Origin: a bacterium
Lineage (GTDB): Bacteria; Bacillota; Clostridia; Lachnospirales; Lachnospiraceae
DNA: 64,000 nt
Assembly: GCA_023663725.1 (NCBI GenBank)
Contig: JAMPGX010000006.1
Location: 88,776-152,775, forward strand
Reading direction: 5' to 3'
The stretch's first letter is position 1. The number at the start of each line of letters is the position of its first letter. This document shows, one piece after another, positions 4,171-21,080 of the stretch. The notes beneath the pieces are model-generated. The model did no database searches. It had not been told where the DNA came from and saw nothing but the letters and a program-made list of their open reading frames with translations. The position numbers were made by a program, and so were the translations under genes.

Positions 4171-5052
4171 TTATTTGCCTCTTAACGATTCTCTCTTTGC
4201 CAGTTCACTTGTAAGAAGAACTTTCTCACTATTCCCCAGCGTCTCAAGACCGGAACATACCCGTTTTTTGAGCATTGCCATTGCCTGAACTTCAAGACTT
4301 GACCTTTGATCAGAACCCCACATATTATGGTCGAGAGTGACATGTCTCTCTATAAGACAAGCTCCAAGAACTGCTGCTATAACAGAAGGCTCAAGATTAG
4401 CTTCATGTCCGCTATAGCCTACAAGACAGTTGTACCGCTCCTTATAAGTGAGAATCAGCCTCAAATTGAGTTCGTTGTTCGGACTTGGATAACAGCTATT
4501 TGTATGGCAAATAATATAATTACCATTGGAATACTTTTCCAACCATCTAACGGCCTGATCTACTTCTTCCAGAGTACTCATACCAGTTGACAAGATAACT
4601 GGTTTGCCGCTTTCACAAGTAGCTTTTATCAAATTCTCATCACAATTCAGCGCAGACGGCAATTTTATAAATGGTACATCATACTGAAGAAGAAACTCAA
4701 GACTTTGAATATCCCACACGGAGGCCGTCCAATCAATTGGTTTTTCCTTGCAATAAGCATCGATAATATCGTATTCAGATTTCTCAAATTCTACATACTT
4801 CTTATATTCCAGATAAGTCATCATTCCCCATGGTGTCTCTCGCAATATTGACTTCTGTGACTCTGGCACAGCAATTTCCGGGGTTCTTTTCTGAAATTTT
4901 GCACAATGCCAATCACACGCAAAACTTGCATCAATAAGCTTTTTTGCAATCGTGATGTCTCCATTGTGGTTGATACCAATTTCTGAGATAAAATACGGTG
5001 CTGAGTTTTCAGATACACTGTAGTTCCCGAGTTTAATTACTTTGTTAGCCAT
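4171..5052 (-). CDS. neuB: N-acetylneuraminate synthase family protein (NeuB-like) without SAF domain
   Basis: NeuB-type TIM-barrel synthases condense phosphoenolpyruvate with a hexosamine or hexose (or its 6-phosphate) to form a nonulosonic acid. Here EIGINHNGD at 24-32, KFQKRTPE near 52 and the HTNSCYPSP and GYSGHE segments are characteristic. The protein is 293 residues, about 50 short of typical NeuB, and ends at the point where the C-terminal antifreeze-like (SAF) domain would begin. The stop is followed by 36 bases and then neuA, with no obvious SAF remnant. An AAGGAG site sits before ATG. It may work with a separate SAF protein or be a natural short form. Confidence 0.85.
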   Translation of the reverse strand: MANKVIKLGNYSVSENSAPYFISEIGINHNGDITIAKKLIDASFACDWHCAKFQKRTPEIAVPESQKSILRETPWGMMTYLEYKKYVEFEKSEYDIIDAYCKEKPIDWTASVWDIQSLEFLLQYDVPFIKLPSALNCDENLIKATCESGKPVILSTGMSTLEEVDQAVRWLEKYSNGNYIICHTNSCYPSPNNELNLRLILTYKERYNCLVGYSGHEANLEPSVIAAVLGACLIERHVTLDHNMWGSDQRSSLEVQAMAMLKKRVCSGLETLGNSEKVLLTSELAKRESLRGK

Positions 5053-5181
5053 TATTAAGTCTCCTTCCTTGCCACTATATACTTAGAGATTCACATAATC
5101 ATCAGTTGATTGCTGCATCTATAAATTAAAAAGTTTCGGCAAATATTAATTCAATTAATTGAATAGCTAACTATATAGGCC

Positions 5182-6297
5182 TTATTTTCTTATCCATAAT
5201 TTATATTGATTACTTTCTATAAATTTGATTCCCAGCGTTATTAATACCATGTTTTTTGCAGAAAGAGATATATTATGGAAAGACCCTGCCGTAAACAGAA
5301 AAAGAAACAACCATTTACAATAATGCTTTTTTAAATAAAAATAAAACACGGCTAATAAACCTGTTAATCCGTACTCACACCAAATCATTAAATAGTCTTG
5401 ATGTAATGGATAATGGTTGCTCCTATTAAAATACGAAGTAACGAGCTGTTCAATATAGCCCCCCTTGTTTCCTATCAAAAATACCTTCATGCTGCCAGTA
5501 ATTTCATTAATTGCCAATTTATATAATGCAATACGTGTTCTATTACTATCCGCAAGCTTTAGCGCTGATCTTCTTATTGTCATTGCATTGTTTATTATTA
5601 TATAAATATTTTTATAATTAATAGCGCAAAACAAAGTGCCCAAAATGGTCAAACCGATAAATAAACTTTTCTTGGAAGAAATTCTCCCAAAACAAATTAA
5701 ATATGAAAGCAAATAAAATCCTACCATTGCACATGCACATAAAAGGATTGTTCTGGTTCCCGAAAAGAAAATAAGAATTAATGAGATGGATATGTAAAAT
5801 AAACTTCTCTTTTCTTTTACATTATTAAAAAAATGAACAGTCATAAAGGAAAGGCAAATCAGCATAGTACATGCGAACTGGGGCCCTGAAATATCAAATC
5901 CAACCGCTCGTATATCTCCTCTTCCTATCTGTACTATTGAATAAATACCCCCACAAATAATTAAACACTTAATAATTTGCATATAGTTTTTAATATAAAA
6001 CTCTTGATAAGAAATAATACATAACAAGACCAGAAAATACCTAATTCCTTCTATATTTATAGAATAAAGTGCCGCTACAATAGCAATGGCAAAACAGATA
6101 ATAGTTGTTTTATCAAAATTTCTAACAAAAAGGCAATATCCCATTATACCTATTAAAGCTAAAATAGTTGTTACTAAAGCATTAGACATATAAAAGGGAA
6201 GTATTTTAGCATTAAACATTAAAAATAAAAAAATTGCTATTAATGCGCCAAAATTACTTTTATTTAATGTTGTTGATTTTTTTAATATTACCCTCAT
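5182..6297 (-). CDS. wzy: O-antigen/capsule polymerase (Wzy-like)
   Basis: A 371-residue integral membrane protein with about 10-11 hydrophobic helices and a larger extracellular loop around residues 240-310 containing RNRTRIALY-type and HPLHQDY segments, as in O-antigen ligase/polymerase (Wzy_C) proteins. Sequence similarity within this group is low, so the call rests on topology, the RxxxW/HxDY-like loop and the gene neighbourhood. It would polymerise repeat units on the outer membrane face after Wzx export. GAGG precedes the ATG. About 130 bases without a gene separate it from neuB, including the palindrome TTCAATTAATTGAA. Confidence 0.75.
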   Translation of the reverse strand: MRVILKKSTTLNKSNFGALIAIFLFLMFNAKILPFYMSNALVTTILALIGIMGYCLFVRNFDKTTIICFAIAIVAALYSINIEGIRYFLVLLCIISYQEFYIKNYMQIIKCLIICGGIYSIVQIGRGDIRAVGFDISGPQFACTMLICLSFMTVHFFNNVKEKRSLFYISISLILIFFSGTRTILLCACAMVGFYLLSYLICFGRISSKKSLFIGLTILGTLFCAINYKNIYIIINNAMTIRRSALKLADSNRTRIALYKLAINEITGSMKVFLIGNKGGYIEQLVTSYFNRSNHYPLHQDYLMIWCEYGLTGLLAVFYFYLKKHYCKWLFLFLFTAGSFHNISLSAKNMVLITLGIKFIESNQYKLWIRK

Positions 6298-6361
6298 TTT
6301 TACCTCTTAATATGCAAGCTGGGCCTCTTTTTTTCCAATTCGCATACTCTGTTTTGCTTAA

Positions 6362-6931
6362 TCAGTATCCTGCGCCACATCTTAATGCCCACATCATCAT
6401 ATGGTCAAGTATCATATGAAGGTCCTCTGAAATCTGCATATCATTGATGTCAATATGGATGCTGTAGTCAGCCAGTTCTTTCATCCTGCCGCCGTTGTAG
6501 CCAACAATGGCAATGACTGTCCCGCCAATAGACTTAGCGTATTCAAATGCATTAACAATATTTTTACTGTTACCAGAGCCGGAAATGCCAATCAGGATAT
6601 CTCCCTTCTCCATCTTATTTTTCAACGGGTAGCAAAATACTTCATCATAGCTGATGTCATTTGCCACAGCCATCAAAGTGGCAATATTGTCGCTTAGACA
6701 CTCAAATTTATACTTTATTTTAAGGTTTTCACTAATTCCTTTGTTAAAATCTCCTGCATAATGACTGGCTGTCGCTGCACTGCCCCCGTTACCGCAGATA
6801 AAAATGTGCCTATTTGCAAGTCTTGCTTCTTCCAAAACATTAATGACTGTGTTTACATCTTCAAGATTTAGATTCTGGTAAACCTCGACTTCACGGTCAC
6901 GATATGCCTGTAATTTTTGTAAATAGTTCAT
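6362..6931 (-). CDS. SIS-domain phosphosugar isomerase (GmhA-like)
   Basis: The 189-residue product is a single SIS domain close in length to sedoheptulose-7-phosphate isomerase GmhA, with the sugar-phosphate loop CGNGGSAATASHYAGDF near residue 47 and GISGSGNSKNI near 112. It overlaps the upstream cytidylyltransferase gene by 4 bases (ATGA), so the two are probably translated together. No GmhB- or HddA-type genes follow, so a standard heptose pathway is incomplete here. It may isomerise another sugar phosphate that the IspD-like enzyme then activates with CTP; this is inference. Confidence 0.85.
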   Translation of the reverse strand: MNYLQKLQAYRDREVEVYQNLNLEDVNTVINVLEEARLANRHIFICGNGGSAATASHYAGDFNKGISENLKIKYKFECLSDNIATLMAVANDISYDEVFCYPLKNKMEKGDILIGISGSGNSKNIVNAFEYAKSIGGTVIAIVGYNGGRMKELADYSIHIDINDMQISEDLHMILDHMMMWALRCGAGY

Positions 6932-7695
6932 CTATCAATTCCTCCATTGTGCTCTTTCAAGAACATCTCTATATCGCCTGCGTATGACTCGGTACTTAAT
7001 TTAGAACTATATTCAACCATTTTTCTATATAGATCCAAATCCTCTTTATATGTAATCTTTAAATTTACAATATGCGATTTTATAGCTTTAACCTGTGCAT
7101 TTTGCTTTTTTGCCAAAGCTATGGCTGATGTCATATTTTCTAGTTCTGTAGTACTTGCAGATACATAACAATTATATATTTTTCCATACAAAAATCCTTC
7201 CGGTGAATATCCAGAGCTAACTTCTTGTCTCGGAATAACAGATATAATGTTGTCGTCACTATCAATTTGATAAATTGTGTGTACTTGTTCTGTTGTTAAT
7301 ACAGCATAACCGAATTGTTTAACTGTCATGATAACATCTCTTATTTGCTTGCTTGCCACTACGGGATTAGTGACATCATGTATCAAGAAAATATCATTAT
7401 CTGTTAAATATTCATGTGCAAAAACAACTCCATTGTATATAGATTTTGACATCGTATTTCCTCCTGGTATCACATCTAGGAGTTTATCTCCAACCACCTC
7501 TTCCGCTACATTCCTTGTAAAATCAATCCAATTGGGATTAGAAACCAAGATATATTTATCAATGACACCTAATTTTTCATATTGTTCAAGAATCCAATAA
7601 AACAATGGATGACCGCATAGTTCAACATACTGTTTTGGTATATTAGAGCCAAACCGATTACCACTCCCACCCATTTTTACAAGTAAACAAATCAT
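6928..7695 (-). CDS. IspD/TarI-like cytidylyltransferase
   Basis: A 255-residue nucleotidyltransferase with the CTP-binding GGSGNRFGSNIPKQY motif at the N-terminus, the metal/substrate segment LIHDVTNPVV near residue 105 and the C-terminal KITYKEDLDLY signature of the IspD/TarI family. IspD acts on methylerythritol phosphate, but homologues in capsule or teichoic loci activate ribitol-5-phosphate or related polyol/sugar phosphates. Its place beside a SIS isomerase and upstream of a TagF-like transferase favours the capsule role. ATG at 7695 has GGAG 8 bases upstream; a TTG one codon earlier is also open. Confidence 0.82.
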   Translation of the reverse strand: MICLLVKMGGSGNRFGSNIPKQYVELCGHPLFYWILEQYEKLGVIDKYILVSNPNWIDFTRNVAEEVVGDKLLDVIPGGNTMSKSIYNGVVFAHEYLTDNDIFLIHDVTNPVVASKQIRDVIMTVKQFGYAVLTTEQVHTIYQIDSDDNIISVIPRQEVSSGYSPEGFLYGKIYNCYVSASTTELENMTSAIALAKKQNAQVKAIKSHIVNLKITYKEDLDLYRKMVEYSSKLSTESYAGDIEMFLKEHNGGIDR

Positions 7696-7765
7696 CAAAT
7701 CATCTCCGTTTATTATGTTAAAATATATATTTACTGCCTAAACTGATCTCGTGAGCATTTCCAGA

Positions 7766-8923
7766 TCAACAATATTTTTTTAAAACCTGTATCATTTTTG
7801 AAGGAAGTAAATTCTTAATCCTTTCTTTTAGCTGAAACCCAATTTTTTGTTCTCTTATAAAATTTTCATTATCAATATGCATATAGAACTCATCTCGACT
7901 TTGAGGTCTCTCACTAGGCTTAACTAAATTCCCCTGCTTCTCTACTCCCTCATCTAATGTCAACTCTATCGTTTCTGCCAATTCAGCTATTTCTCTATAA
8001 AGTTGTTGTCCTTTTTCTGTATTAACAAATACACTGGACACCCCTTGAGAAGAATAAAAATCCGGATGACTATTTAATACTCCCCAAAAATCTCCTACCG
8101 TCATATCTCCTACACGCTTGATATTTGCATATTGACATTGATAGCAGCATTCTCGAAAACAATTTCCAGCCATGAAATTTTTACCATAACGGTCAAGAGA
8201 CAATGTCTTTGTCTTTGTCTTTGTCTTTGTCTTTGTCTTTATTAAATATTGTGTTCCCCAGCCTCGTTTATATTTTGAACGAAAATTGAAATATATTATT
8301 TCCCCTTTTAATTTTTTTTGTTGATATTCAATATATTTCTGGAAAAATTTTGGAGAAGGTACTCCATGGCATATCAGATCAATTGTATATAGATTTTTCT
8401 GATCGCCACCCAAAAATGTATACAATCCCGCAACTTGACAGGGCGTTCCGGTAAACAAAACCTTTTTCCCTTCTGCAAGCTGTTTTTGGATCTTTGAATA
8501 GCAATCTGCCACATCAGACTGCACATATTTAGAGGACTGCATTTTTTTCCGCCCATCCTCATCAGATACTTCTATATGGCGAACCACAAAATTTTTATCA
8601 TAGGCAGCACCATAGACAATCCCTCCCTTCCCAATAATTATTCTTGCCACAAGATCAGAGGCCCCTCCTGAAGCTGATCTCATAATATCCTGATCACTTT
8701 TATTTCTAAGTGCCCATATATGTACTGGCTTATTTCTGTGTGCTTCTACATTATTAACCGGACATTTTTTTACACAAAGCCCACAATTATTGCATGCCTC
8801 TCCAATCTTTGGATATAAAAAACCCTCATTGCTGCTCTGCATGGAAATACAATGGTTAGGGCAAATTTGTTCACAGCTCCGACATCCTACACATCTTTTT
8901 CCAATTATCTGGATGTTGTCCAT
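7766..8923 (-). CDS. FrhB-like iron-sulfur protein of polysaccharide loci
   Basis: The 385-residue product starts with two 4Fe-4S clusters (CVGCRSCEQICP near residue 13 and CNNCGLCVKKCP near 42), followed by FrhB-type N- and C-terminal domains with GTPCQVAGL near 158 and CYQCQYA near 264. Homologues are common beside pyruvyl transferases in capsule clusters, where their electron-transfer role is not established. A perfect hexanucleotide repeat at 8205-8240 encodes six Lys-Thr pairs inside the FrhB region. The gene follows the pyruvyl transferase by 4 bases, and ATG at 8923 is favoured over GTG at 8926. Confidence 0.82.
   Translation of the reverse strand: MDNIQIIGKRCVGCRSCEQICPNHCISMQSSNEGFLYPKIGEACNNCGLCVKKCPVNNVEAHRNKPVHIWALRNKSDQDIMRSASGGASDLVARIIIGKGGIVYGAAYDKNFVVRHIEVSDEDGRKKMQSSKYVQSDVADCYSKIQKQLAEGKKVLFTGTPCQVAGLYTFLGGDQKNLYTIDLICHGVPSPKFFQKYIEYQQKKLKGEIIYFNFRSKYKRGWGTQYLIKTKTKTKTKTKTLSLDRYGKNFMAGNCFRECCYQCQYANIKRVGDMTVGDFWGVLNSHPDFYSSQGVSSVFVNTEKGQQLYREIAELAETIELTLDEGVEKQGNLVKPSERPQSRDEFYMHIDNENFIREQKIGFQLKERIKNLLPSKMIQVLKKYC
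8205..8240 (+). repeat. In-frame hexanucleotide microsatellite, 6 copies
   Basis: Six perfect tandem copies of GTCTTT on the plus strand encode (Lys-Thr)6 in the FrhB-like protein on the minus strand. The unit is a multiple of three, so copy-number slippage would lengthen or shorten a charged stretch without breaking the frame. Confidence 0.95.
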
Positions 8924-8927
8924 CACT

Positions 8928-10043
8928 TTATTCCTCTACGGTATATTTTTTCAGATATTCGTAACTCCTTATACGTTCCCTTTGTAGAATATCATCAACC
9001 ACATCATAAAATATTATTTGTTCTTCAAGTTTTTGGGGTAATTCGCTTAGATCACTAATAATTTGCTGACTCAAACTCAACCTGTCCAAAAGATCTGTCA
9101 ATTTCTCCGAATTACTATAACCAGAATATCTAATTAGGGCTACAAACTGCCTGTGAGTGATTACAGAAAGAATTGTTCCATGGAAGGTATCTGTTATAAC
9201 ACATTCTGCATGTTGGAAATAGGCAATCACCTTGAATGGATCACAATCAATAAAATTGTCGCAAGCGCTTTGTACCCCTCCAATGCAAAAAATCTTGAGT
9301 CCTCTGTCTCTCGCATATTCCCTGATGCTCTTACATTCTTTTTTAGAGAATCTACCGGTATAACCATAAAGAAGCAGATAATTTTCTTCCGGTATTTTTT
9401 CAGGTATTTTATAACATTTCGAGACAAAATCATATGCCAATACCGGGTCCAAATGATATTCCGGCGTTTTTCCCAATAGAACCTCTATAATTTGTACACT
9501 GTTGGCATCTCTAACAGAAATAGCCTGGAACTTTTGCAGCCACTCCTTTATCTGATCAATCACTTTATACTCACGTAATTTGATTTCCGTAGTGTTACCA
9601 AAGGACGCGGCATAAGAGATAAGTCGTTTTGCCTTGTTTTCTTGTCCAAACAGCTCTGGAGAAAAACCTACATTTGTATTGCTCTGTACACAATTGAAAA
9701 CCTCATCACTCCCTATGACAAGCAAATCCAATCGGGGAGAGTAATTCCTTTCCTTAGTGATGCCCAAAAGTGGGAAATAATTAGCTGCATAGTTCTTTTT
9801 ATAATTTATAAACTTTAGCTTCTCCTTCATAGGCGCATTTATTATCAGTACGCCAACAGCTTTACAGATTTTTCTTCGGATTCCTATTCTACTGTCCGGT
9901 GACATCAAGGTTTTTCCTGGATGATAATCAACAAACTCCACATTACATCCCAATTCCTCCAGGATTTTTTTTAAAGCATATGCCTGTAAAAACGAACCAT
10001 AATTGGCAATCCTTTGCATTGACATTATTCCGACTTTAACCAT
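8928..10043 (-). CDS. Polysaccharide pyruvyl transferase family protein
   Basis: A 371-residue CsaB/WcaK-like enzyme that would add a ketal-linked pyruvate from phosphoenolpyruvate to a sugar of the repeat unit. The N-terminal MQRIANYGSFLQAYALKKIL (residues about 9-28), LVIGSDEVFN near 101 and the C-terminal TDTFHGTILSVI segment with its conserved histidine are family hallmarks. The next gene encodes the FrhB-like iron-sulfur protein, a frequent partner. The ribosome site (GGGAAAATAGAAT) is weak, in keeping with translation within a long operon. Confidence 0.88.
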   Translation of the reverse strand: MVKVGIMSMQRIANYGSFLQAYALKKILEELGCNVEFVDYHPGKTLMSPDSRIGIRRKICKAVGVLIINAPMKEKLKFINYKKNYAANYFPLLGITKERNYSPRLDLLVIGSDEVFNCVQSNTNVGFSPELFGQENKAKRLISYAASFGNTTEIKLREYKVIDQIKEWLQKFQAISVRDANSVQIIEVLLGKTPEYHLDPVLAYDFVSKCYKIPEKIPEENYLLLYGYTGRFSKKECKSIREYARDRGLKIFCIGGVQSACDNFIDCDPFKVIAYFQHAECVITDTFHGTILSVITHRQFVALIRYSGYSNSEKLTDLLDRLSLSQQIISDLSELPQKLEEQIIFYDVVDDILQRERIRSYEYLKKYTVEE

Positions 10044-10074
10044 ATTCTATTTTCCCGTTTTATTTTGGTGTTAC

Positions 10075-10569
10075 CTAAAACATATTATCAACTATCTTTG
10101 CCAGTTCTGCATTAAATCTAACATTGTTACTCTCTAATTTATTCTTTTTGCCACATATAATGGAATCATAATTTTGAATTGTATCCAGCATTTCATTCAT
10201 GGCTTCCACAACAACAATTATTCCCATCCGTTTTTCCACTTCTTTAGAAAAGGAAACTTGATGATCATTAATATGCTCATTATATTTTTTTTGCCTCGGC
10301 ACAACAATTGGCGTCTTGCCAATCTGCAACGGCATAATAAAGCTAGAGGGCCCCCCATGGGTGATGACAATTCTGGCTTCGGCCACCAGTTCTGTTATTT
10401 CCTGATAAGAGAAAAAATCATGCCATATACAATACTTGGGTTCATATGTGCTATATCCACTCTGAATGATTACATCCTCCTGAATCACATTGTCTCTTTT
10501 CAAACAATCCATATATTCCACCAGACGATTGAATGGTTGCTCATGTGTTCCCACTGTTACAAAAATCAT
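10075..10569 (-). CDS. Glycosyltransferase catalytic subunit, PssE/Alg13-like
   Basis: A 164-residue protein beginning MIFVTVGTHEQPF, the signature start of the Alg13/PssE/CpsG family (C-terminal half of GT28 enzymes), with the UDP-binding VITHGGPSSFIMPL segment near residue 82 and PIVVPR near 105. These proteins join an Alg14/PssD membrane partner, encoded just upstream, to make the second glycosyl transfer onto the lipid-linked priming sugar. I chose ATG at 10569 because GAGGTGA lies 7-8 bases upstream and homologues begin there; a longer frame to 10605 is unlikely to be used. Confidence 0.88.
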   Translation of the reverse strand: MIFVTVGTHEQPFNRLVEYMDCLKRDNVIQEDVIIQSGYSTYEPKYCIWHDFFSYQEITELVAEARIVITHGGPSSFIMPLQIGKTPIVVPRQKKYNEHINDHQVSFSKEVEKRMGIIVVVEAMNEMLDTIQNYDSIICGKKNKLESNNVRFNAELAKIVDNMF

Positions 10570-10588
10570 TTTTGTATCACCTCGTCTT

Positions 10589-11038
10589 CTAGAATATGCT
10601 GCCAAGATTGATTGCTTTCGGATATATCTGCTTCATCTCTTCCCATTCCACTATAAATTTATCCGTGACGGGATAACACAATCTACCTGAGATTGTAGAA
10701 GCATCAATTCGATCAAACACTTCAATATAAATAGTCTTTATCCCCAGCAACTTACCAATATAGAAAAAAGGAATTGCCGGAGCAGCTCCTGACGAAATCA
10801 GAAGATCTGGGCGCTCTTTAGGAAGGATTTTAATTGCAAGTATTGCATTAATGATAAGCGCCTTTATACTGCGATTACTCGGATAATGACAAGGATACAT
10901 CTTTTCCCCCTGCAGGATGCTCCTTGCATCCTCCTTATCAAATGTCACCCAAAAACGTTCTTTATCCTGCCAGAAAGGTTTTAACATATATAAATGTGTA
11001 AGATGCCCTCCTGACGACCCCACTAAACATACCTTCAT
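10589..11038 (-). CDS. Glycosyltransferase membrane subunit, PssD/Alg14-like
   Basis: The 149-residue product starts MKVCLVGSSGGHLTHLYML, the N-terminal signature of Alg14/PssD/CpsF proteins, which recruit the Alg13/PssE catalytic subunit to the membrane. The predicted hydrophobic segment and the LLISSGAAPAIPFFYIGKLLGIKTIYIE region match the family. It is the first gene of the AT-rich variable part of the operon, 118 bases after loaP, with TAGGAG about 9 bases before ATG. The partner gene begins 20 bases downstream. Confidence 0.88.
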   Translation of the reverse strand: MKVCLVGSSGGHLTHLYMLKPFWQDKERFWVTFDKEDARSILQGEKMYPCHYPSNRSIKALIINAILAIKILPKERPDLLISSGAAPAIPFFYIGKLLGIKTIYIEVFDRIDASTISGRLCYPVTDKFIVEWEEMKQIYPKAINLGSIF

Positions 11039-11156: not shown

Positions 11157-11663
11157 TCACACTTTCCCCACCACTTCCAGCCCAAACCGCATCTCCACAT
11201 CCCGCCCAAACATCTGAAGGCTGATCACCCCATAGCGGTTATGTCGGTCCACGGCCTTGAGCCGTCCCTGATAGCCCGCAAAGGGACCCTCGGTGATGCG
11301 AATCTCGTCGCCACATTGATATCCCCTGCTCATGGGCAGCACATACTCCCCATCCAGATGCCGCTCCAGGAACCCCTGCTCCGCCTCTGTCAAGGGAATG
11401 ACCTCCTGGCCGATCTTCAGCACCCTGGTCATCTCTGGAATCCTCCGCAGGCATTGCTCCACCGCTCGGATATCCTCCGTCACCAGGAACAGATACCCTG
11501 GGAACAGCCGTCTCTTCACCACCCTGCGAACGCCGCCTTTTTTGAAGGACGCCTCGTAAGTGGGATAAAAGCAATCCTGCAGAAGCTCCCTGTCAAAGCA
11601 ACAGGAAATCAGCTCCCGCAATTCGGCCTCCCTGCCCGACATGACCTGCAACACATACCACAT
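11157..11663 (-). CDS. loaP: LoaP-type NusG paralogue, processive antiterminator
   Basis: A 168-residue NusG family protein: NGN domain from about 1 to 110 (start MWYVLQVMSGREAEL, then FYPTYE and RLFPGYLFL) and a KOW domain near 120-165 (GDEIRITEGPFAGYQGRL). Housekeeping NusG lies elsewhere in ribosomal gene clusters; a copy inside a polysaccharide operon is typical of LoaP in Firmicutes, which lets RNA polymerase read through terminators in long biosynthetic operons. It sits between the priming transferase and the sugar-specific genes. The start is supported by GGAAAGG/GGCGGAGT upstream. Confidence 0.88.
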   Translation of the reverse strand: MWYVLQVMSGREAELRELISCCFDRELLQDCFYPTYEASFKKGGVRRVVKRRLFPGYLFLVTEDIRAVEQCLRRIPEMTRVLKIGQEVIPLTEAEQGFLERHLDGEYVLPMSRGYQCGDEIRITEGPFAGYQGRLKAVDRHNRYGVISLQMFGRDVEMRFGLEVVGKV

Positions 11664-11982: not shown

Positions 11983-13443
11983 TCACATACTGCCCTCTCC
12001 GCGCAGCACGATCTGTACTGTCTTAAACAATATCTTCAGATCCCTGGAAAAGCTCCAGTCCTGAATATACTCCATATCCAGCTTTACCACTTCCTCAAAG
12101 TCAGTGATATTGCTCCGGCCGCTGACCTGCCAGAGTCCGGTGATCCCCGGCTTGGCCGCCAGACGCGCCCTGTGATGCAACTCATAGCGCTCATATTCCT
12201 CCACTGTGGGGGGCCTGGTTCCCACCAGACTCATCTCCCCCTTCAGCACATTGAAGAACTGTGGGAACTCGTCCAGGCTGGATGCCCTGAGCCAGTTGCC
12301 GATTCCCTTATGGTAACGTCCTGTACTATCGAATCGCGACCCAATGATGCGGGGGTCCTCGTCCAGCTTGAACATGAAATCGCTGCCCACCCTGTTTTTT
12401 TCCATCAGCTCCTTCTTGCGCTCTTCAGCATCCAGGTACATCGAGCGAAACTTATACATCTTGAACTGTTTGCCATTCCTGCCCACCCTGATCTGGCTGA
12501 AAAATATGGGGCCGGGAGACTTGATGTATATGGCAGGCGCGATAACTACCATCAGGAGTAATGTGATCAGACTTCCCACCAGGCCGCCCAGAATATCCAG
12601 GCCCCGCTTCATCATCTGCTGCCTGGCCGTCACATAGCTGACGCTGCTGGTCAACACGGCATAGCCGCCAAGCCGCTCGATGATCTGCCCTCGCTCGGAC
12701 ATGTAAGCCGCCTCAGCCAGCTTGGTATGTACCACTACTCCCATAGCCTGGAAATCCCTGATAATCTCCTCAGGATAGGCATTGTCCGCAGGTACGGCGA
12801 AGAAGACCTCGTCCACCCAATGCTTGCAGGCCCAATCCACCACATGCGCGGAGTCAGACACCACTGGAATCCCCTGAATCACCAGCTCCTCCTCCGCTCC
12901 ACCCTCCTGATCGAGCAGGGTGATTCCCACCACACGGAAAGACTTGTAATTATATTTCCTGATGTTGTCAATCAGTGCGGGAGCCATCTCATCCGTCGTC
13001 ACCAGCAGCAGGGAACGCTTCCCTTCATTGGCCTTGTAATGCTTCAGATACTGCTTCCACAGCAGGCGCACGCCCAGGCTGATCGGCAGCTGATAGATGC
13101 CCGTGAGATACAGCACAGTTCGGGAAAAAATATCCGCATCCTTGACTGTAAACAGGTAAAAGCTGATCAACAGCTCGATAATCGCGATCTGCTTCACCAA
13201 CTGAGCCAATTCCTTCAGCACATTCCTCTTCAGTACATTCTTGTAGCTCTCGAAAAATATTGCGGTGATCAATTCAATCAGAATCAATACGATCACCAGA
13301 TTACGGTATGTGATATTCGCATAGGGATTGCGCCACCCATGTCTTGTGATAAAAGCAAGCGCATAGGATATCTGCAGACAGATCACATCCAGCAGGATGA
13401 AGTCCAAGTGCTTGAGCCAGCCCCTTGTACTTTTTTTGTACAT
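11983..13443 (-). CDS. Undecaprenyl-phosphate glycosyl-phosphate transferase (priming enzyme, WbaP/CpsE-like)
   Basis: The 486-residue protein has about four N-terminal membrane helices, a CoA-binding-like middle domain, and a C-terminal bacterial sugar transferase domain (about 295-486) beginning QMMKRGLDILGG, with SPGPIFFSQIRVGRNGKQFKMYKFRSM and GTRPPTVEEYERYE. It would start repeat-unit synthesis by loading a sugar-1-phosphate onto undecaprenyl phosphate. I place the start at ATG 13443 with GAGGAG about 11 bases upstream; the frame remains open to 13572 but that stretch contains strong hairpins and an untypical Cys-rich peptide. Confidence 0.9.
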   Translation of the reverse strand: MYKKSTRGWLKHLDFILLDVICLQISYALAFITRHGWRNPYANITYRNLVIVLILIELITAIFFESYKNVLKRNVLKELAQLVKQIAIIELLISFYLFTVKDADIFSRTVLYLTGIYQLPISLGVRLLWKQYLKHYKANEGKRSLLLVTTDEMAPALIDNIRKYNYKSFRVVGITLLDQEGGAEEELVIQGIPVVSDSAHVVDWACKHWVDEVFFAVPADNAYPEEIIRDFQAMGVVVHTKLAEAAYMSERGQIIERLGGYAVLTSSVSYVTARQQMMKRGLDILGGLVGSLITLLLMVVIAPAIYIKSPGPIFFSQIRVGRNGKQFKMYKFRSMYLDAEERKKELMEKNRVGSDFMFKLDEDPRIIGSRFDSTGRYHKGIGNWLRASSLDEFPQFFNVLKGEMSLVGTRPPTVEEYERYELHHRARLAAKPGITGLWQVSGRSNITDFEEVVKLDMEYIQDWSFSRDLKILFKTVQIVLRGEGSM

Positions 13444-13488
13444 ACCCTTTACGCTCCTCTCTATTTGGTTATCTGTACATCTCCATGC

Positions 13489-13534
13489 GGCGCGGCAAAA
13501 ATGCATGCCGCCGCGCCATACGCATTTCGATGCG
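13489..13534 (-). promoter_or_regulatory. Two GC-rich hairpins in the leader of the priming transferase gene
   Basis: Bases 13489-13496 (GGCGCGGC) pair perfectly with 13510-13517, and next to them CGCAT-TTCG-ATGCG (13521-13534) forms a 5-bp stem with a four-base loop. They lie about 45-90 bases upstream of the chosen start codon and have no following U-run on the minus strand. They could act in attenuation or RNA stability. Confidence 0.45.
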
Positions 13535-13623
13535 CCACATGCCTGGTTACTGCATATCCCCTGCCTGCACAACCGCTAAAGCTGTACAGACAGGCTTATT
13601 CAAGGGGCGGTAGGTATGTAATA

Positions 13624-13666: not shown

Positions 13667-14434
13667 TTACGCGCGTTTTTTGGACATAAATACGGCTACT
13701 GCCGCGCCAGCCATAAAGATCACTGCCATGACGGAAACCATCACAACCATATCGCCAGTCTTAGGCGCCACTGCCGTAACAGTCACGGCAGGACTGCTGG
13801 GATTGTTGTTGGACGGCTGACTTGCCGGAGCCGCGGGCGTCGCTGCGACCTTCACCTTGACGATGGCATAGGGAGAGAATTTGTCAGAGGTAAATTTAAC
13901 CTTGCCATTCTCGACCACGCCTACGACTATATGATTCTCCGCAGCGTCAATCGCCCATATCTGCTGATCCGCTTCGGGAGCAGTGATACCCATTGCAGCC
14001 AGATCAAATTCTACAGTGATCGTAGCGCCCTTGACTTCGGGAGTAATCACGACAGGAAATACATTGCCAATCACTTCCGTTGCCGACTTACCGTCCTTCC
14101 CATAAGTCTGGGGATTGTCCAGTACTACGGCCACCATCTTGGCTATGTCAACAACCTGTGTATCATTCGGTACTACAAATGTAGCCTCCTGCGTCGAAGT
14201 TGCGGCGCTGTCTACTGCATCCTGGCTAACCTTGCCAAGATCGATCTGCGCCTTACTTCCGCTGGTGCTTGCTATCTCGACCGTATTGGACTCCTTGTTG
14301 ACGTTGACCACACTGCTTTCTCCGGCCGCCGACGAAATACCTTCAGCAGTCGGGCTGCCTGCCGCACAGACGTTCATGCACATCGCAAGTGAAAGTGTGA
14401 CAGCGCTGACTAATGCAACTATTTTCTTTTTCAT
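13667..14434 (-). CDS. Small secreted surface protein with PKTGD sorting-like tail
   Basis: A 255-residue protein with a clear signal peptide (MKKKIVALVSAVTLSLAMC, predicted cleavage after ACA-type alanines near residue 25), an extracellular domain, an Ala/Ser/Pro/Asn linker near 205-220, then VAPKTGD followed by a hydrophobic helix and the positive tail MSKKRA. This is the layout of a cell-wall sorting signal, with PKTGD in place of LPXTG. A class B sortase gene lies two genes upstream in the operon. ATG 14434 has AGGAGG about 8 bases upstream. I do not recognise the extracellular domain. Confidence 0.8.
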   Translation of the reverse strand: MKKKIVALVSAVTLSLAMCMNVCAAGSPTAEGISSAAGESSVVNVNKESNTVEIASTSGSKAQIDLGKVSQDAVDSAATSTQEATFVVPNDTQVVDIAKMVAVVLDNPQTYGKDGKSATEVIGNVFPVVITPEVKGATITVEFDLAAMGITAPEADQQIWAIDAAENHIVVGVVENGKVKFTSDKFSPYAIVKVKVAATPAAPASQPSNNNPSSPAVTVTAVAPKTGDMVVMVSVMAVIFMAGAAVAVFMSKKRA

Positions 14435-14507
14435 GGGTTTGTTCCTCCTTTCCCAATAGTACATGTGGCATATATTAATCAGGCTTTCACCCGGTTAATA
14501 CCTCTCA

Positions 14508-15695
14508 TCAATTCTCCTGCTGTTCCGGTTCGATCTCCCGGTAGAACAGTTGAATCATCAAATCCCGCAGGGCATCATAGTCGGGATAAAACTCCTCATA
14601 TTTTTCTCCCCGCACCGTAGTGCCCTCCATCATATGTATGGCCTCCTGGTCAAAGCTGTAGCTGGCCAACTCGCTGGCCAGATATGCGAGCTCATCGGTA
14701 GTGACATCCGTCACCATATATTGTTTCAGCTTCCCATACAGATCAATGGGCAAGGTAATATTCTGTCTTGTGGCAGCGATGGCCTTCTCCATGAATTTGG
14801 TCAGATACTGCTTCTGTCTGGCAAGACGTCCTCTGGCGCTCTCAAATATTCCCGTATCCCTGTATTTCACATACCAGAAAGCATTCATGCCCTCCAGATG
14901 CAGTTCCACACCTTCCTTGGCGCCCTTAATCATCCTGCTCATATCCTCCAGACAGGTCACATCCACGCCGCCCACAGCGTCGTTTATTTCCGGTATGGCC
15001 GCCATATTCACCGACACATATCCGCTGATGGGCAGATCGTAAAAGAGCTTGGACACAGCGTCCCTTGTCAGTTCACAGCTCAACTCCCTGCCGTCGCCAA
15101 ATCCATGCTGTACAGCGATCTGCCCTGTGACTGTTGGCGAGGTGCCTCCTGCACCAGCATGATACGCTACGATATCTGTCATGGTATCTCGATTGACTGC
15201 TAAGATACGGATACTCCGATCATCAGGATTGGCAATCACCAGAAACAGTGCGTCTGACTGACCGCCACTGATCTCATCCTCACTCTCGGACACCTCCTCC
15301 ATCTTATCGATTCCCATTACCAGAAAGGTCAGAATATCCTCGTTATATTCATATATCTTGCCCTGATAACGTATCCAGCCTTCCTTCCATACGACCTCTG
15401 ACTGCGGCTCATCGCTTCCATTCCCCGCCCCGATATCACTCTCCGTCTCCAGCTCTGTCAACGCCAGATCAGGTCTGGCTCCGGCAGTCCTCTCACGGAG
15501 CCGCCTGCCGCCGCAGGAAATGTACAGCGACATTGCCCCCACTGCCACAGCCGCGAGCAACACCAGCGCCAGCAGCCAGGCGAGCAATCGCTGTATCACT
15601 CTGCGCCTCTTGCGGCGGGACCGCTCTGCCTGAAGGCTCTGCCTCATATCCTGCTCCATATCACTATGTAAATAAGAGTCTGTTTGTTGATTCAT
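14508..15695 (-). CDS. LytR-CpsA-Psr family ligase
   Basis: The 395-residue product has a basic cytoplasmic lead, one membrane helix near residues 36-58, and an extracellular LCP domain (about 120-340) with the family's VMGID, NRDTM near 170 and RFSYxRG-like KYRDTGIFESARGRLARQKQ segments holding the conserved arginines and aspartates. LCP enzymes attach undecaprenyl-linked capsule or teichoic polymers to peptidoglycan. In this operon it is the expected wall-attachment step for the polysaccharide. It starts 20 bases after the sortase gene. Confidence 0.9.
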   Translation of the reverse strand: MNQQTDSYLHSDMEQDMRQSLQAERSRRKRRRVIQRLLAWLLALVLLAAVAVGAMSLYISCGGRRLRERTAGARPDLALTELETESDIGAGNGSDEPQSEVVWKEGWIRYQGKIYEYNEDILTFLVMGIDKMEEVSESEDEISGGQSDALFLVIANPDDRSIRILAVNRDTMTDIVAYHAGAGGTSPTVTGQIAVQHGFGDGRELSCELTRDAVSKLFYDLPISGYVSVNMAAIPEINDAVGGVDVTCLEDMSRMIKGAKEGVELHLEGMNAFWYVKYRDTGIFESARGRLARQKQYLTKFMEKAIAATRQNITLPIDLYGKLKQYMVTDVTTDELAYLASELASYSFDQEAIHMMEGTTVRGEKYEEFYPDYDALRDLMIQLFYREIEPEQQEN

Positions 15696-15714: not shown

Positions 15715-16629
15715 TCACTGTTGTTCCTGCGGTACTATGGGCCATTCTCCCTCCGCCTCCAGCACCGCCTGAACAATGTAGCGCTTCTCCGGCTTCCTGT
15801 AAACGCAGGTCTCCAAGGTCAGAACCTTATCCTCCGCGGATACTGAGACCTCCTCCAGAAAATTATCCCGCATGCCCTCAAGACCCAGCACTTCTTCCAG
15901 ATACGCGGCAAATACCTCCGAGTCATCCATATCCCTGGTGAGCAACAGATGACGGTTGTCATACTCATAAGCTCCAAATATGTGATATACCCGCACATAA
16001 TTCTCCGAAAAAATATATATGTACTGGTTCTCCTCCAGAAATTCCAGATCTTCATAAAAGTGCAGACCGGCAAACATGCTTCCGTTCTTCATATTGTGCC
16101 CATACAGCACAGTGTTGGAATCCCCCCATTCCCTGTCGTTTAGATACTGACTGTAGATACAGCCCGGATATCCGCTGCTGCGGTCCACATTGTGATCTAA
16201 GTAGTAATCCAGGTCGGAGGAATGCTGCAGTACCGGATAGTCAATCACAGTTCCCGGCACCGTGATCCAGGCATAGATATCCTCATTCTCTTTTTCCTGC
16301 AGGGCCGCAATATCCACCTGCCTGTCAGGAATCTCATAGGCCAGCAATGGAGATGGCTCCGGTGTAGGCGAGGGGGTCGGCTCCGGTTCCTCCTGCCGCT
16401 CCTGCGGCGCTGTACTATCTGACCGGGCCTCGTCTCCTGCTACCGGCGTCACATATTTCTGGCGCAGACTCTCCACATTTTCCGCCGCTCTGTGGTTGTT
16501 TACGACATAGTAGATCAGCCATACCAGGCAGCACAGGAAACAGACACCGCAAACTCCTGCCACAAGTCTCCATGCTGACTTACCTCGCTGCTCCTCCCCT
16601 TTATCCCATTGTCGTTTATTGCCGTGCAT
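15715..16629 (-). CDS. srtB: Class B sortase
   Basis: A 304-residue membrane-anchored transpeptidase: one N-terminal helix near residues 22-43, a Pro/Glu/Thr-rich linker, then a sortase domain from about 110. The catalytic set is visible: His in LYGHNMKNGSMF near 173, Cys in LTLETCVY near 280, and Arg in the following KRYIV. The family cleaves a sorting motif and joins the protein to cell wall or pilin lysine. The nearby PKTGD-tailed protein is its most likely substrate. A sortase inside a capsule operon is unusual. Confidence 0.88.
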   Translation of the reverse strand: MHGNKRQWDKGEEQRGKSAWRLVAGVCGVCFLCCLVWLIYYVVNNHRAAENVESLRQKYVTPVAGDEARSDSTAPQERQEEPEPTPSPTPEPSPLLAYEIPDRQVDIAALQEKENEDIYAWITVPGTVIDYPVLQHSSDLDYYLDHNVDRSSGYPGCIYSQYLNDREWGDSNTVLYGHNMKNGSMFAGLHFYEDLEFLEENQYIYIFSENYVRVYHIFGAYEYDNRHLLLTRDMDDSEVFAAYLEEVLGLEGMRDNFLEEVSVSAEDKVLTLETCVYRKPEKRYIVQAVLEAEGEWPIVPQEQQ

Positions 16630-16717: not shown

Positions 16718-17452
16718 CTAGTCCTGAATGCCATAATTGCCGTAATACTGCCCATAATATTTGCCGTAGTATTTTCCGTAATACCGACCATAATATTTCC
16801 CGTAGTGACCGTACTGGCCGCCCTTGCTCATATTTACCTTGTTCAACACGCAGCCCAGAATCCGGCACTCCGCCTTATCCAGCTGTTCCTTGACCTTCTG
16901 TGCAAAGCGATAACTGATCTCCCCGTTGGCAATCACCAGCATTACGCCGTCGCACTGCTTCGCCACGATAGCGCTGTCGATCACACTTCCCAGCGGCGGC
17001 GTATCGATAATGATCATGTCATATTTTTTGCGTGCTTCCGCCAACATATCCTGAAAGCGCTTGCTGCCTAACAGCTCACTGGGGTTGGGCGGCACCGGAC
17101 CCGCAAAGATCATATACAGATTTCGATTATCCGTCTCGCAGGTGACCTCGTCCAGACAGTATTTACCCACTAGGCAGTGTACCAGGCCCAAACGCACCTT
17201 CCCCTTGAAATAACGGCGGATTAACAGGGACTTGCGCAGATCCCCGTCAATCATCAGCACCTTCTTCCCGTTCTGGGCAAAGGAAGCCGCCAACTCATAG
17301 GATATGCTGCTCTTGCCCTCGTTTGGGGTACAGCTTGTCACGGCGACCACCTGGATATTGTCCCCTGAGAATTCCACGTTGGTCCTCAGTGTCTTGTATG
17401 CCTCTTTTGAGCGATAGTCCTGCTCCGTCTGTTTTAGCTGTATGGTCTGCAT
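16718..17452 (-). CDS. Bacterial tyrosine kinase (CpsD/YwqD-like)
   Basis: The 244-residue ATPase shows Walker A SCTPNEGKSS at about 40-49, the Walker A' IDGDLRKS near 68 and Walker B IIDTPP near 147, as in BY-kinases that work with a separate Wzz-like activator. The last 30 residues are a Tyr/Gly/Lys-rich tail with 13 tyrosines in short repeats, the expected autophosphorylation cluster. The start at ATG 17452 has GAGGAG 9 bases upstream and lies 4 bases after the chain-length gene. It would set polymer length and export together with that activator and the PHP phosphatase. Confidence 0.92.
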   Translation of the reverse strand: MQTIQLKQTEQDYRSKEAYKTLRTNVEFSGDNIQVVAVTSCTPNEGKSSISYELAASFAQNGKKVLMIDGDLRKSLLIRRYFKGKVRLGLVHCLVGKYCLDEVTCETDNRNLYMIFAGPVPPNPSELLGSKRFQDMLAEARKKYDMIIIDTPPLGSVIDSAIVAKQCDGVMLVIANGEISYRFAQKVKEQLDKAECRILGCVLNKVNMSKGGQYGHYGKYYGRYYGKYYGKYYGQYYGNYGIQD

Positions 17453-17456
17453 CCTG

Positions 17457-18281
17457 CTACTCCTCCTCGCCCAGATCAACAATATCCTCCGCCTCGTCTG
17501 CGTGCGAACGTACATCTGCACTCACAGCCTTATTCGCGTTGGATTTCTGCCTGGATCCGCTTCTACCCTTTTTGTTCTGACCGTTGTATTCTGCCTGTCC
17601 CATCGGGATCAATCCCAGCGTACTCAGGTGTAGGTATTTTTCAATATCCTCCGAGGACTTAATCGTATCGTCCAGCAGGAAACGCACCAGTACTACTGCG
17701 GCCGCCAGAAATCCGCCCAGCAGAAAACCGATCAGCGTCCATTTGATCACGCTGGGATTGGCGGGTCTATCCGGAAGATTGGCATCATCCACCTTGTTCA
17801 CCGCCTGAATGTCTGTCACCTCCACTATGCGCTCCGCCGCTATATCCCGCAGCGCATCCGCAATCTCCTTGGCCAGAGCGGGGTCTGGATCTGTAATCGT
17901 GATATCAATAATGCGGCTGTCTGATTTGGTTGACACCTGGATCTTACTGAGAAATTTCTCATATGTACTCTCCAACCCAAACATGTCAATTACCTTTTCC
18001 ACGACATAGCGCGACTGAATCAGCTCTGGATAATCTTTGGTCAGAGAACTGCCCAACTGCAGATCACTGTAGGTCAGATTACCGCTGCTATTGTCCTGCC
18101 GGTTCAGCACCAGTATGCGGGTGGTGGACTCATAGGTAGGGGTAATGACGAATTTGCTGAACGCAAAAGCCGCCCCTCCCACGATCACAGCCGCCATCGC
18201 TATCATCCAGGCGTAATGCAATAACAGCATCAATATCTCCATCAAATCTATTTCAATTTCTTCATTGTATCTCTGTTCCAT
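17457..18281 (-). CDS. Chain-length determinant / kinase activator (Wzz, CpsC/YwqC-like)
   Basis: A 274-residue Wzz-family protein with a membrane helix near residues 20-42, an extracytoplasmic domain, a second helix near 185-205 preceded by the proline-containing PDRPANPSVIK motif, and a cytoplasmic tail with DDTIKSSEDIEKYL that activates the separate tyrosine kinase. The ATG at 18281 overlaps the end of the upstream phosphatase gene by 20 bases, supporting translational coupling. It would control polymer length with the kinase encoded next. Confidence 0.9.
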   Translation of the reverse strand: MEQRYNEEIEIDLMEILMLLLHYAWMIAMAAVIVGGAAFAFSKFVITPTYESTTRILVLNRQDNSSGNLTYSDLQLGSSLTKDYPELIQSRYVVEKVIDMFGLESTYEKFLSKIQVSTKSDSRIIDITITDPDPALAKEIADALRDIAAERIVEVTDIQAVNKVDDANLPDRPANPSVIKWTLIGFLLGGFLAAAVVLVRFLLDDTIKSSEDIEKYLHLSTLGLIPMGQAEYNGQNKKGRSGSRQKSNANKAVSADVRSHADEAEDIVDLGEEE

Positions 18282-19050
18282 AACTGTCCTTCCTGTCGCC
18301 GGATAAGATTCTCCTGGCATTGCCTCCCAGAATATCCTCCACATATTCTGCCGGATATTTTCTCCGCAGCATCTTGACGCAGTCCTCTATCGCGTGGCTT
18401 CTGCTCCTGTCGCTATGCGCGTCCGTGGCGACAAAGTCAACCCACTGTTTTTTCAACAGATTATGTACGGTCTTTTTGGCCACAGGTCCCATCTTTCCCT
18501 CTATCGAATTAGCGTTGACCTGAATCAGCACTCCCATCTCCCGCAGTTCGCCTATGCGATCACCGTTCTTCCCGCACAAGCTCATATAGCGCTCCACATG
18601 CGCCAGTATTGGCTCATAGCCTGCGGCTTGCAGTTCAGAGAGGGCATTGCGGATATAGCGGGCGTCATCCGCCGGCGAGAACTCCACCAGCACATAGCGA
18701 CTTCCCGCCAGAGGCAGTATCTTTCCTTCCTCCAGAAGCTCAGGCACCTCCTGGTGATAATAGATCTCATTGCCCTCATATATCTCCAGATTATACTGCT
18801 GCAGGCTGGCATACTTTCTGAGCTCCTCTGTCAGCCTGCGCAGCGTCTCCGGCGCAGGGTGTCTCCCCTCCGGCATATAATGGGGCGTGGCTACGATGGC
18901 GCGGATGCCATTTTCCCAGGCTATATCCAACATCCGGCAGGACTGACTCACACTGCGGGAGCCATCGTCCACGCCAGGCAGAATATGGCAGTGAATATCG
19001 ACCACTCCGCTCGGAATATCGCTTTCTTTTTTCCTGCTTAACAATATCAT
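18262..19050 (-). CDS. Capsule tyrosine-protein phosphatase (CpsB/YwqE-like, PHP family)
   Basis: The 262-residue protein carries the PHP metal-binding motifs DIHCHILPGVDDGS near 18, ATPHYMPEG near 55, EGNEIYY near 94, LAHVERY near 158 and TDAHSD near 202. CpsB-type enzymes dephosphorylate the capsule tyrosine kinase. It is the first gene of the capsule operon; its start lies 71 bases from the nearer inverted repeat of the putative invertible promoter, so that switch would control the whole cluster. The ribosome site before ATG (GAAGAGGGC) is rather distant. Confidence 0.9.
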   Translation of the reverse strand: MILLSRKKESDIPSGVVDIHCHILPGVDDGSRSVSQSCRMLDIAWENGIRAIVATPHYMPEGRHPAPETLRRLTEELRKYASLQQYNLEIYEGNEIYYHQEVPELLEEGKILPLAGSRYVLVEFSPADDARYIRNALSELQAAGYEPILAHVERYMSLCGKNGDRIGELREMGVLIQVNANSIEGKMGPVAKKTVHNLLKKQWVDFVATDAHSDRSRSHAIEDCVKMLRRKYPAEYVEDILGGNARRILSGDRKDSYGTEIQ

Positions 19051-19121
19051 GTCGCGCTGATGCCCTCTTCCGTCCTGTACCGTTTCACCCTCACTGCAGT
19101 CTCTTCATTCTGAACATCCTA

Positions 19122-19148
19122 AACAACATAATTTGCATTATGTTGTAT
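19122..19148 (+). repeat. Left inverted repeat of the putative invertible element (27 bp)
   Basis: This 27-bp sequence is the exact reverse complement of 19300-19326. It contains the arms ACAACATAAT and ATTATGTTGT separated by TTGC, an imperfectly symmetric core of the kind tyrosine recombinases use; the asymmetric centre gives the sites opposite orientation. Confidence 0.95.
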
Positions 19149-19299
19149 GCCCTATCCAGAATAAACAGAAATAAGCCAAATATAGAGCCTGACAATGCCC
19201 CACCTACAGGAGAATCCTGTAAATATGTAAAGAAGTTAAAATAAAACGCTTGCATTATCCTGCAAAATATGGTATTTTAATGGTTGTTTAAATCAATAT
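19149..19299. promoter_or_regulatory. 151-bp putative invertible promoter segment of the capsule operon
   Basis: The AT-rich spacer between the two inverted repeats has no gene. Candidate promoters exist on both strands. On the minus strand, toward the capsule genes, TTGTCA (19190-19195) and TATTTC (19168-19173) are 16 bp apart. On the plus strand, toward the recombinase, TTGCAT (19250-19255) and TATTTT (19273-19278) are 17 bp apart. Neither is strong, so I cannot say which orientation is ON. A short hairpin, ACAGGA-GAA-TCCTGT, lies at 19206-19220. Inversion would exchange the promoter facing the capsule operon. Confidence 0.7.
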
Positions 19300-19326
19300 A
19301 TACAACATAATGCAAATTATGTTGTT
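19300..19326 (-). repeat. Right inverted repeat of the putative invertible element (27 bp)
   Basis: Exact reverse complement of 19122-19148. Its last 10 bases overlap the 3' end of the recombinase gene and supply the final Thr-Thr codons and stop; because the other copy carries the same bases, inversion would leave the recombinase protein unchanged. Confidence 0.95.
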
Positions 19327-20177
19327 GCTAAAACCATCTCCATGCCATCCAGTATCCTCCTGTGCTCCTCCCCTGTGGATTTCATATATATCCTTGTGGT
19401 TTCGATATTGCTGTGTCCGAGAATATCCGCCAGCTTCACAATATCTCTATCCGTCTGATAGAAACAGATCGCGAACAAATGCCGAAGATTATGGGGAAAC
19501 ACTTTGTTTTCCTCTATACCCGCCTGACTGCACAGCCGTTTCATCTCCCTCCAGACATTACTCCTGTCTATTGGCTTGCCACCGGCAGTCTGGAAGACCG
19601 GCCCCTCCTCCAGAGCTTGTTCTTTTATATAGGCTTTCAACAATTTCTGCAAACTCTGCGGCAGCAATATACGTCTGAGCTTACCCTTGCAACGGATGTT
19701 AGCCATACCCCTGTACACGCAGGCCACATCAATATATTGCAGTTCGCTGACGCGTATGCCTGTACTCCCTATGGTCTGGATGATCAATGCAAGCCTGCGG
19801 CTTCCCTCTCTTTCCGCCGTCTGCACCAGCCGCTGATATTCCTGACGCGTCAGATGCCGCTCCTCCTCCCGAAAGGCCTCCTTCTGCATACGGATGGTAC
19901 GCACCTTCAGATCATACCAGCCCATCACCCTGCAAAAATAATTTGCCACTGCCAAAAAGCTGTTGATGCTGGCCAATTTGTAGAGTCCGCACTCCTGCAG
20001 ATGACTTTTATATGCAACTAACCTTTCCTGATCCAGTTGCCTCCCGTCCAGATACGACGCCAGCTTCTCCAGATCCCGCATATACTTATCCATTGTCGCA
20101 CGGCTCTTTTCATTTTCGCGCATCGCTCTGCGGAACTGCTCCTTTCTCTCCTGTGTGATTACCCTGTCCTCGTCCAT
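19317..20177 (-). CDS. Tyrosine site-specific recombinase next to the capsule switch
   Basis: A 286-residue integrase-family protein with a SAM-like core-binding domain (about 10-90) and a catalytic domain (about 105-275). The catalytic residues are all visible: Arg142 in GSTGIRVSEL, Lys near 164-166, His229 and Arg232 in PHNLRH, His255 in LGHSNIETT, and Tyr264. It is the size of Xer-like and phase-switch recombinases rather than large phage integrases, and no phage genes are nearby. Its gene ends inside the right inverted repeat, so it is the natural candidate to invert 19122-19326. AAAGGAG precedes the ATG. Confidence 0.93.
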   Translation of the reverse strand: MDEDRVITQERKEQFRRAMRENEKSRATMDKYMRDLEKLASYLDGRQLDQERLVAYKSHLQECGLYKLASINSFLAVANYFCRVMGWYDLKVRTIRMQKEAFREEERHLTRQEYQRLVQTAEREGSRRLALIIQTIGSTGIRVSELQYIDVACVYRGMANIRCKGKLRRILLPQSLQKLLKAYIKEQALEEGPVFQTAGGKPIDRSNVWREMKRLCSQAGIEENKVFPHNLRHLFAICFYQTDRDIVKLADILGHSNIETTRIYMKSTGEEHRRILDGMEMVLATT

Positions 20178-20214
20178 ATCTTACTCCTTTCTGTAAATTG
20201 CCAATTTAGACATT

Positions 20215-20445
20215 TGCAAAATTCAATTACTATGCGAGTGTCATTGTACACATTGTACATTCCAACGCGGGCACGCTCTCGCTTCGTTCTCACTATAGCG
20301 GTACTAAGCTCGTGCCGAATGAATTCGGCAAACCTCGCTAAGTACCGACAGTTCGTGGTGTTACGGTTGAAAACCGTAACACGAAGCCTGCTTATGGAAT
20401 ATACAATATGTACAATTCGGTACTGGCAAAAAATAGATTAGCAAT
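20215..20445. mobile_element. MITE-like repeat element, copy A
   Basis: About 230 bp with imperfect terminal inverted repeats of about 50 bp (starting near TTGCAAAATT and ending near TAGCAAT) and internal hairpins such as GCCGAATGAATTCGGC and GTTACGGTT-GA-AACCGTAAC. It matches copy B (21081-21273) in reverse orientation, with long shared blocks such as GCGAGTGTCATTGT and TTCGGTACTGGCA. It encodes no protein. It occupies most of the 352-base gap between the recombinase gene and dut and may carry the recombinase promoter. Confidence 0.8.
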
Positions 20446-20462
20446 CGCCTAAAATGCAAAAT

Positions 20463-20505: not shown

Positions 20506-20529
20506 ATATTCGCGTTTATGATATCCTGT

Positions 20530-21045: not shown

Positions 21046-21080
21046 CGTCGCACCTTCCCTTTTATTAAAGTTCCAAAGAA

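Follow-up and report, generated by a model that had tools for sequence, protein, structure and literature searches.

A probable recombinase-driven phase switch with an invertible promoter ahead of capsule genes in a lachnospiraceal genome

The capsule locus of the 64-kb window (the window being the whole stretch of DNA analysed here) is very probably a phase switch, a reading to which we give roughly 86%, in which a recombinase turns around a short promoter-bearing segment in front of capsule genes. As we picture it from sequence, the tyrosine recombinase P0001 would bind both arms of an inverted repeat, recombine them at an asymmetric 4-nt centre and so flip the 151-bp segment between them, which would bear a single outward promoter near one of its ends. 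As assembled, that promoter would face away from the capsule and be directed, antisense, at the 3′ end of the recombinase gene, the OFF state; once the segment had turned around, transcription would pass across the left arm to cpsB and what follows it, the ON state, and flipping would spare the recombinase because its stop codon lies within the site. That the locus has the structure of a capsule phase switch had been proposed from a sequence-only reading, and the proposal now draws support from a paralogue in the same genome, from several dozen relatives that are laid out alike and from relatives found in opposite orientations.

The two arms, at 19122..19148 on the capsule side and 19300..19326 on the recombinase side, are exact 27-nt inverted repeats spaced by 151 nt of gene-free sequence (19149..19299), none of the three being assigned a strand, so that inverted repeats flank a short segment here as in an inverton. 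Perfect inverted repeats of at least 14 nt with a gap of 60-700 bp number only four in the window and this pair is the longest, while 50 dinucleotide shuffles of the window gave a mean of 0.12 such repeats and none above 15 nt. Each arm is a recombination site of the form ACAACATAAT-TTGC-ATTATGTTGT, with 10-nt dyad arms about an asymmetric 4-nt centre (TTGC/GCAA). The exact repeats, the mirrored arms with their asymmetric centre and the 71 bp from the left arm to the start of the first capsule gene had all been described beforehand, and all held when the shuffles, a dyad analysis and the gene start were set against them. An Rfam search of 18800-20600 returned zero matches, and a leader RNA fold z-score of -4.34 was set aside as long inverted repeats yield such values anyway.

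P0001 (19317..20177, minus strand, 286 aa), in all likelihood the invertase of the capsule segment, carries a Phage_integrase domain (Pfam PF00589, E 6e-27), and the solved chains nearest to it are XerC-like, XerA and XerD. The R-K-H-R-H-Y set by which tyrosine recombinases are judged is complete (R141, K165, H228, R231, H254 and Y263), as had been claimed for it, and none of the six residues is conserved in fewer than 74 of 77 aligned recombinases. Its TAA stop and last two codons sit within the right arm, which runs from -9 to +17 relative to the stop; since they lie inside an arm identical to its partner, inversion would leave the protein unchanged, which agrees with the earlier expectation that the 3′ end would be restored by flipping. 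No relative of P0001 turned up in the viral contigs searched, and a scan of genome contigs yielded one weak relative only, at 24% identity, in Butyrivibrio.

How general is this arrangement? Matches to P0001 are present at E 1e-3 in 126 of 138 same-genus genomes, many of them distant, and at E 1e-60 in 72 of 397 genomes sampled from the family, the host genome being counted. The survey covered 77 loci, 37 from the genus (above 39% identity, the window and its paralogue L035 included and shorter or partial matches lower in the list left out) and 40 from the wider family (40 of the best 44 matches outside the host genome, G165:C75, G247:C17, G408:C46 and G184:C81 being left out). Of these, 66 (the window among them) have 210 bp or more of sequence past the recombinase gene. 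An inverted repeat of at least 12 nt adjoins the 3′ end of that gene at 59 of the 66, against a shuffle expectation of 1.5, and one of at least 14 nt at 58, against 0.15 in shuffles; control windows 2 kb further on held a repeat in 1 of 57. The 18 loci of the 77 that show no repeat comprise 11 in which the contig stops within 210 bp (L066, L077, L019, L114, L118, L121, L123, L133, L136, L143 and L151) and seven real misses, repeat-less despite enough sequence (L070, L074, L075, L112, L145, L146 and L150). The layout is thus not universal, L112 being the nearest relative outside the host genome (54% identity). Where repeats occur the site is recognizable: 57 of the 59 loci match the core CATAAT-NNNN-ATTATG, or a close variant, at 8 or more of its 10 fixed positions, the centre is asymmetric by best dyad in all 39 arms considered (31 genus and 8 distant-group), and the CATAAT half-site supplies the TAA stop of the recombinase in 19 of 59 loci, L122 having been excluded by eye.

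Phage_integrase matches number 17 in the host genome, all but one above cut-off, and one might imagine that another of its recombinases inverts the segment with P0001 a mere bystander. Given that site and recombinase are kept together across the 59 loci, and that site type tracks recombinase similarity (54.0% identity within a type vs 49.9% between types, with 0 of 1000 label shuffles giving as large a difference, kinship being ignored), we find this hardly credible.

Relatives show that such segments move. L063 and L064 come from two genomes of the genus and agree fully over 200 bp on each side of the arms, and their 258 bp, arms included, show 1 mismatch when one is flipped vs 153 when it is not; longer flanks, compared ungapped, differ at 12 positions in 1419 and at 107 in 5062. 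L045 and L056 are likewise flipped at 90% identity, and L059 and L062 at 85%. Because the three pairs lie in opposite orientations, segments of this family invert precisely between their arms in nature, and the window copy presumably flips too. In these six loci the recombinases share 42-50% identity with P0001, and among the genes scanned no capsule genes stood alongside the flipped-pair switches. Contig ends fall within 500 bp downstream of the recombinase at 11 of the 77 loci vs 4 upstream, breaks which might echo mixed orientations, a pattern that is suggestive only. The capsule-switch locus itself appears in a single orientation in the one assembly and each of its arms, as a dyad, could bind a dimeric protein; on that account one might see in the repeats a pair of operators, hairpins or the remains of a switch that has lost the ability to flip. 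Such an origin is very unlikely in view of arms that have stayed identical over 27 nt, a recombinase that is intact with all its catalytic residues, and the precise inversion between equivalent arms in L063 and L064.

The paralogous cassette in the same genome, L035, lies on another contig. Its recombinase (6652-7512) is 61% identical to P0001 and likewise has its 3′ end within an exact inverted repeat, here of 25 nt, bounding a 203-bp segment, behind which come NusG-like, DUF4422, flippase and pyruvyltransferase genes. Scanned with the window core pattern at up to 3 mismatches, the genome yielded the window pair, the L035 pair and four single places. The site centres are TTGC in the window vs ATGA at L035, and the two switches would be expected not to recombine with one another.

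L035 also bears on the state of the window switch. The predicted promoter, TTGCAT-17-TATTTT, occupies 19250..19278 on the plus strand, its -10 element ending 21 bp short of the right arm, and is directed toward the recombinase. The sequence-only reading had called the promoter candidates weak and left the ON orientation open. The first of these judgements stands: taken alone the window promoter has a score equalled in 48% of segment shuffles, and a stricter consensus scan of 18950-20400 found no promoter inside or outside the segment. The second can now be taken further, by way of position and of the comparison with L035. Across the family the best sigma-70-like promoter lies 15-60 bp from the arm that it faces at 30 of the 31 loci from the genus, against 4.9 expected, and at 23 of the 28 from the wider family, against 4.8. 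In all, 53 of 59 loci (about 9.7 expected) have their promoter at this spacing within the segment and directed outward, as befits invertons at the family level; a distant group, considered below, was left out of these promoter statistics. It is this family position, together with a 46-bp block over the promoter (19243..19288, plus strand) that is 76% identical to L035 at the same arm distance (BLAST E 1e-4), that leads us to take TTGCAT-17-TATTTT as the window promoter, presumably an active one. Its L035 equivalent, TTGCAA-17-TATTTT, lies 22 bp from its arm, and as both promoters face their recombinases both loci read as OFF. The OFF call for the window thus draws on the L035 comparison and on score differences, 8.5 toward the recombinase vs 6.5 toward the capsule at the expected 15-60 bp from an arm, or 8.5 vs 8 anywhere in the segment, and with fair confidence the assembled capsule switch is most likely OFF. 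Orientation would then set transcription of the capsule genes. Reading state in the same way by promoter position at the 59 loci gives 46 OFF, 12 ON and 1 unclear, counts that include related loci and presuppose that an assembly shows the majority state.

An inversion can control a gene by other means than carrying its promoter. For the C. difficile surface gene cwpV, switched by a site-specific recombinase through an inversion of similar size (195 bp), the promoter lies outside the segment and a terminator mechanism has been proposed, according to PMC2784873. In a switch of that type at the capsule locus, transcription from an outside promoter, for example that of the recombinase itself, would be stopped or let through as inversion made or removed an intrinsic terminator in the leader. 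Read-through is conceivable since recombinase and capsule genes are co-directional; the consensus scan lists one weak terminator-like hairpin within the segment at 19203-19182 (7 pairs, 3 of them G-C), on the strand that transcription toward the capsule would follow, and a stricter hairpin rule of our own gives hits in 13 of 39 segments (31 genus and 8 distant-group) vs 2.3 expected. By that rule, however, the window and L035 segments are free of terminators on both strands, and what the family conserves is a promoter facing outward at a set spacing from an arm; we consider a terminator switch improbable and retain the invertible promoter.

A further, speculative elaboration of the invertible promoter is that the switch regulates itself. 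The P0001 stop codon lies ~30 bp past the expected transcription start point, and in the OFF state the promoter, running antisense into the recombinase gene, might lower the amount of recombinase and so stabilise OFF, with the brake being lifted in ON; the site would be built into the gene, its CATAAT giving the stop. If so, an excess of OFF in assemblies such as that counted above would follow. We hold this idea to be tentative, and would sooner bet against it than on it.

What lies behind the switch is a long run of genes on the minus strand. The CpsB/CapC-type gene (18262..19050), first under the switch, is followed by genes for a Wzz/CpsC-type chain-length protein (17457..18344), a CpsD-type polysaccharide tyrosine autokinase (16718..17521), a class B sortase-like protein (15715..16629), a LytR-CpsA-Psr (LCP) family glycopolymer transferase (14508..15695), a product with a weak LPXTG surface-protein family match (13667..14464; below the curated cut-off and with no Pfam match) and a priming sugar transferase (Bac_transf, 11983..13572). 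That the class B sortase and the weak LPXTG match adjoin the LCP transferase within the capsule cluster (13667-16629) is a curiosity in its own right, such genes being, to our knowledge, unusual neighbours for capsule genes. Beyond a 319-bp gap (11664-11982) comes a NusG-like gene (11157..11663), the product of which we take to be of the LoaP type, and then more genes in the same direction (4171..11038), most with polysaccharide-type domains (Alg14-like, GT28, pyruvyltransferase, F420-H2 dehydrogenase-like, IspD-like, SIS, Wzy-like and NeuB). The sequence-only reading had the invertible promoter, with its recombinase adjacent, controlling the whole capsule operon. Promoter and recombinase are upheld by the comparative data, and control of the whole operon is uncertain on account of the gap: transcription from the switch would presumably enter the cluster and, to reach the whole of it, would need to read through those 319 bp, in which a scan found no terminator and one weak promoter-like site.

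Capsule genes are only one of the cargoes of such cassettes. In a scanned subset of loci CpsB stands behind the switch in the window and at L149, in another genome of the family, and L128 has a polysaccharide-type dehydratase. Elsewhere the genes behind the repeats encode a signal peptidase and SpaA pilins (L043), LPXTG or repeat surface proteins (L045 and L139, and L052 after two opposite-strand genes), BTAD regulators (L050, L061 and L063), Ser/Thr kinases (L044 and L047), helicase-like proteins (L057, L144 and L148) and a TIR protein (L124), and the first genes at L127 and L131 are without obvious surface role. From this variety the cassette is a general switch, often though not always for surface functions. 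A portable, self-contained unit of recombinase, site pair and promoter would accordingly be at the disposal of a family of probably clostridial gut anaerobes, deployed before capsule genes, polysaccharide clusters led by a NusG-like gene, sortase pili and giant surface proteins. Its practical corollary is a search rule, CATAAT-N4-ATTATG or a close variant at a recombinase 3′ end plus an outward promoter 15-60 bp inside an arm, which finds the switches and reads their state from assemblies, and with which metagenomes could be screened for capsules that are ON or OFF.

Among gut bacteria, capsule phase variation is best known from Bacteroides, where, as Krinos in 2001 and Jiang in 2019 are said to have shown, invertible promoters decide the transcription of polysaccharide operons and where one master serine invertase serves many loci. 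The likeness lies in an invertible promoter before a polysaccharide operon; the difference is that each locus here has its own tyrosine recombinase instead of sharing a master serine invertase. A multi-promoter system of the Bacteroides Mpi type was considered for the window and rejected, P0001 being a tyrosine recombinase and the core pattern giving just the two pairs and four single places mentioned above. In E. coli the fimS segment has the tyrosine recombinase genes FimB/FimE beside an invertible promoter, and it resembles the window switch in this respect while differing in its shorter, 9-bp repeats and its two recombinases.

Closer in outline are systems described recently. The phase-variable cps1 capsule of Akkermansia muciniphila has an inverton beside the capsule cluster with ON and OFF orientations, in another phylum and with a different repeat motif (CGGATT..AATCCG), going by PMC13343947, and Eggerthella switches capsule by large inversions, going by PMC13174815. 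PMC11892184 (Microbiome 2025), in which orientation shifts of invertons were measured in reads, already reports invertons of Clostridia that go with tyrosine recombinases: its inverton group 139, 32 of 33 in Clostridia, is linked to tyrosine invertase group 35, and figure-legend coordinates imply for two examples arms of ~26 nt with ~205 bp between them and of ~14 nt with ~227 bp between them, with regulatable recombinases placed near group 145. Inverted-repeat segments, a nearby tyrosine recombinase and clostridial hosts are common to group 139 with invertase group 35 and to the window family, and the window cassettes, likened by description, are probably of the same kind; the words ‘sortase’ and ‘CATAAT’ are absent from the main text of PMC11892184. 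Titles and abstract openings, with few subscription papers among the literature covered, yielded no case in Clostridia or Lachnospiraceae of an invertible capsule promoter accompanied by a tyrosine recombinase of its own. All told, the observation on the window holds and its interpretation is well supported, and it brings a sequence rule, a likely OFF assignment and a testable feedback idea.

Some further features deserve record. The distant group (L027, L029, L032 and L078-L082, at about 32-36% identity) has sites of the form AATACGATATTTTG with centre CGA and segments of 127-153 bp. By eye its members have a -35-like TTGACA near an arm and a possible -10 across the arm and flank (scored only in L082), so placed that a promoter might be completed by inversion, and L078 has a lysozyme/amidase gene behind its switch. 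In the segments of L043, L046, L049, L051, L052 and L054 a block of ~36-40 bp near AGTCAAAAGATACGTC, separate from the promoter, is conserved and may be a site for an accessory protein or regulator. A second tyrosine recombinase match (~24-33% to P0001) comes directly behind the switch at L048, L055, L062, L065, L067, L068 and L069, where by position it would be under switch control, and L074 has one likewise, though it lacks repeats. L055 and L065, both in genome G055, have the same 4-nt site centre, CATC, and on account of it recombination between the two loci might be possible. Lastly, a repeat of ~250 bp at 20200-20480 of the window has 57 matches genome-wide, pieces counted, and looks like a MITE-like interspersed element; copies lie directly upstream of both switch recombinases (in the window and at C22:274397-274611), and imperfect inverted copies flank a dUTPase gene (20530-21117).
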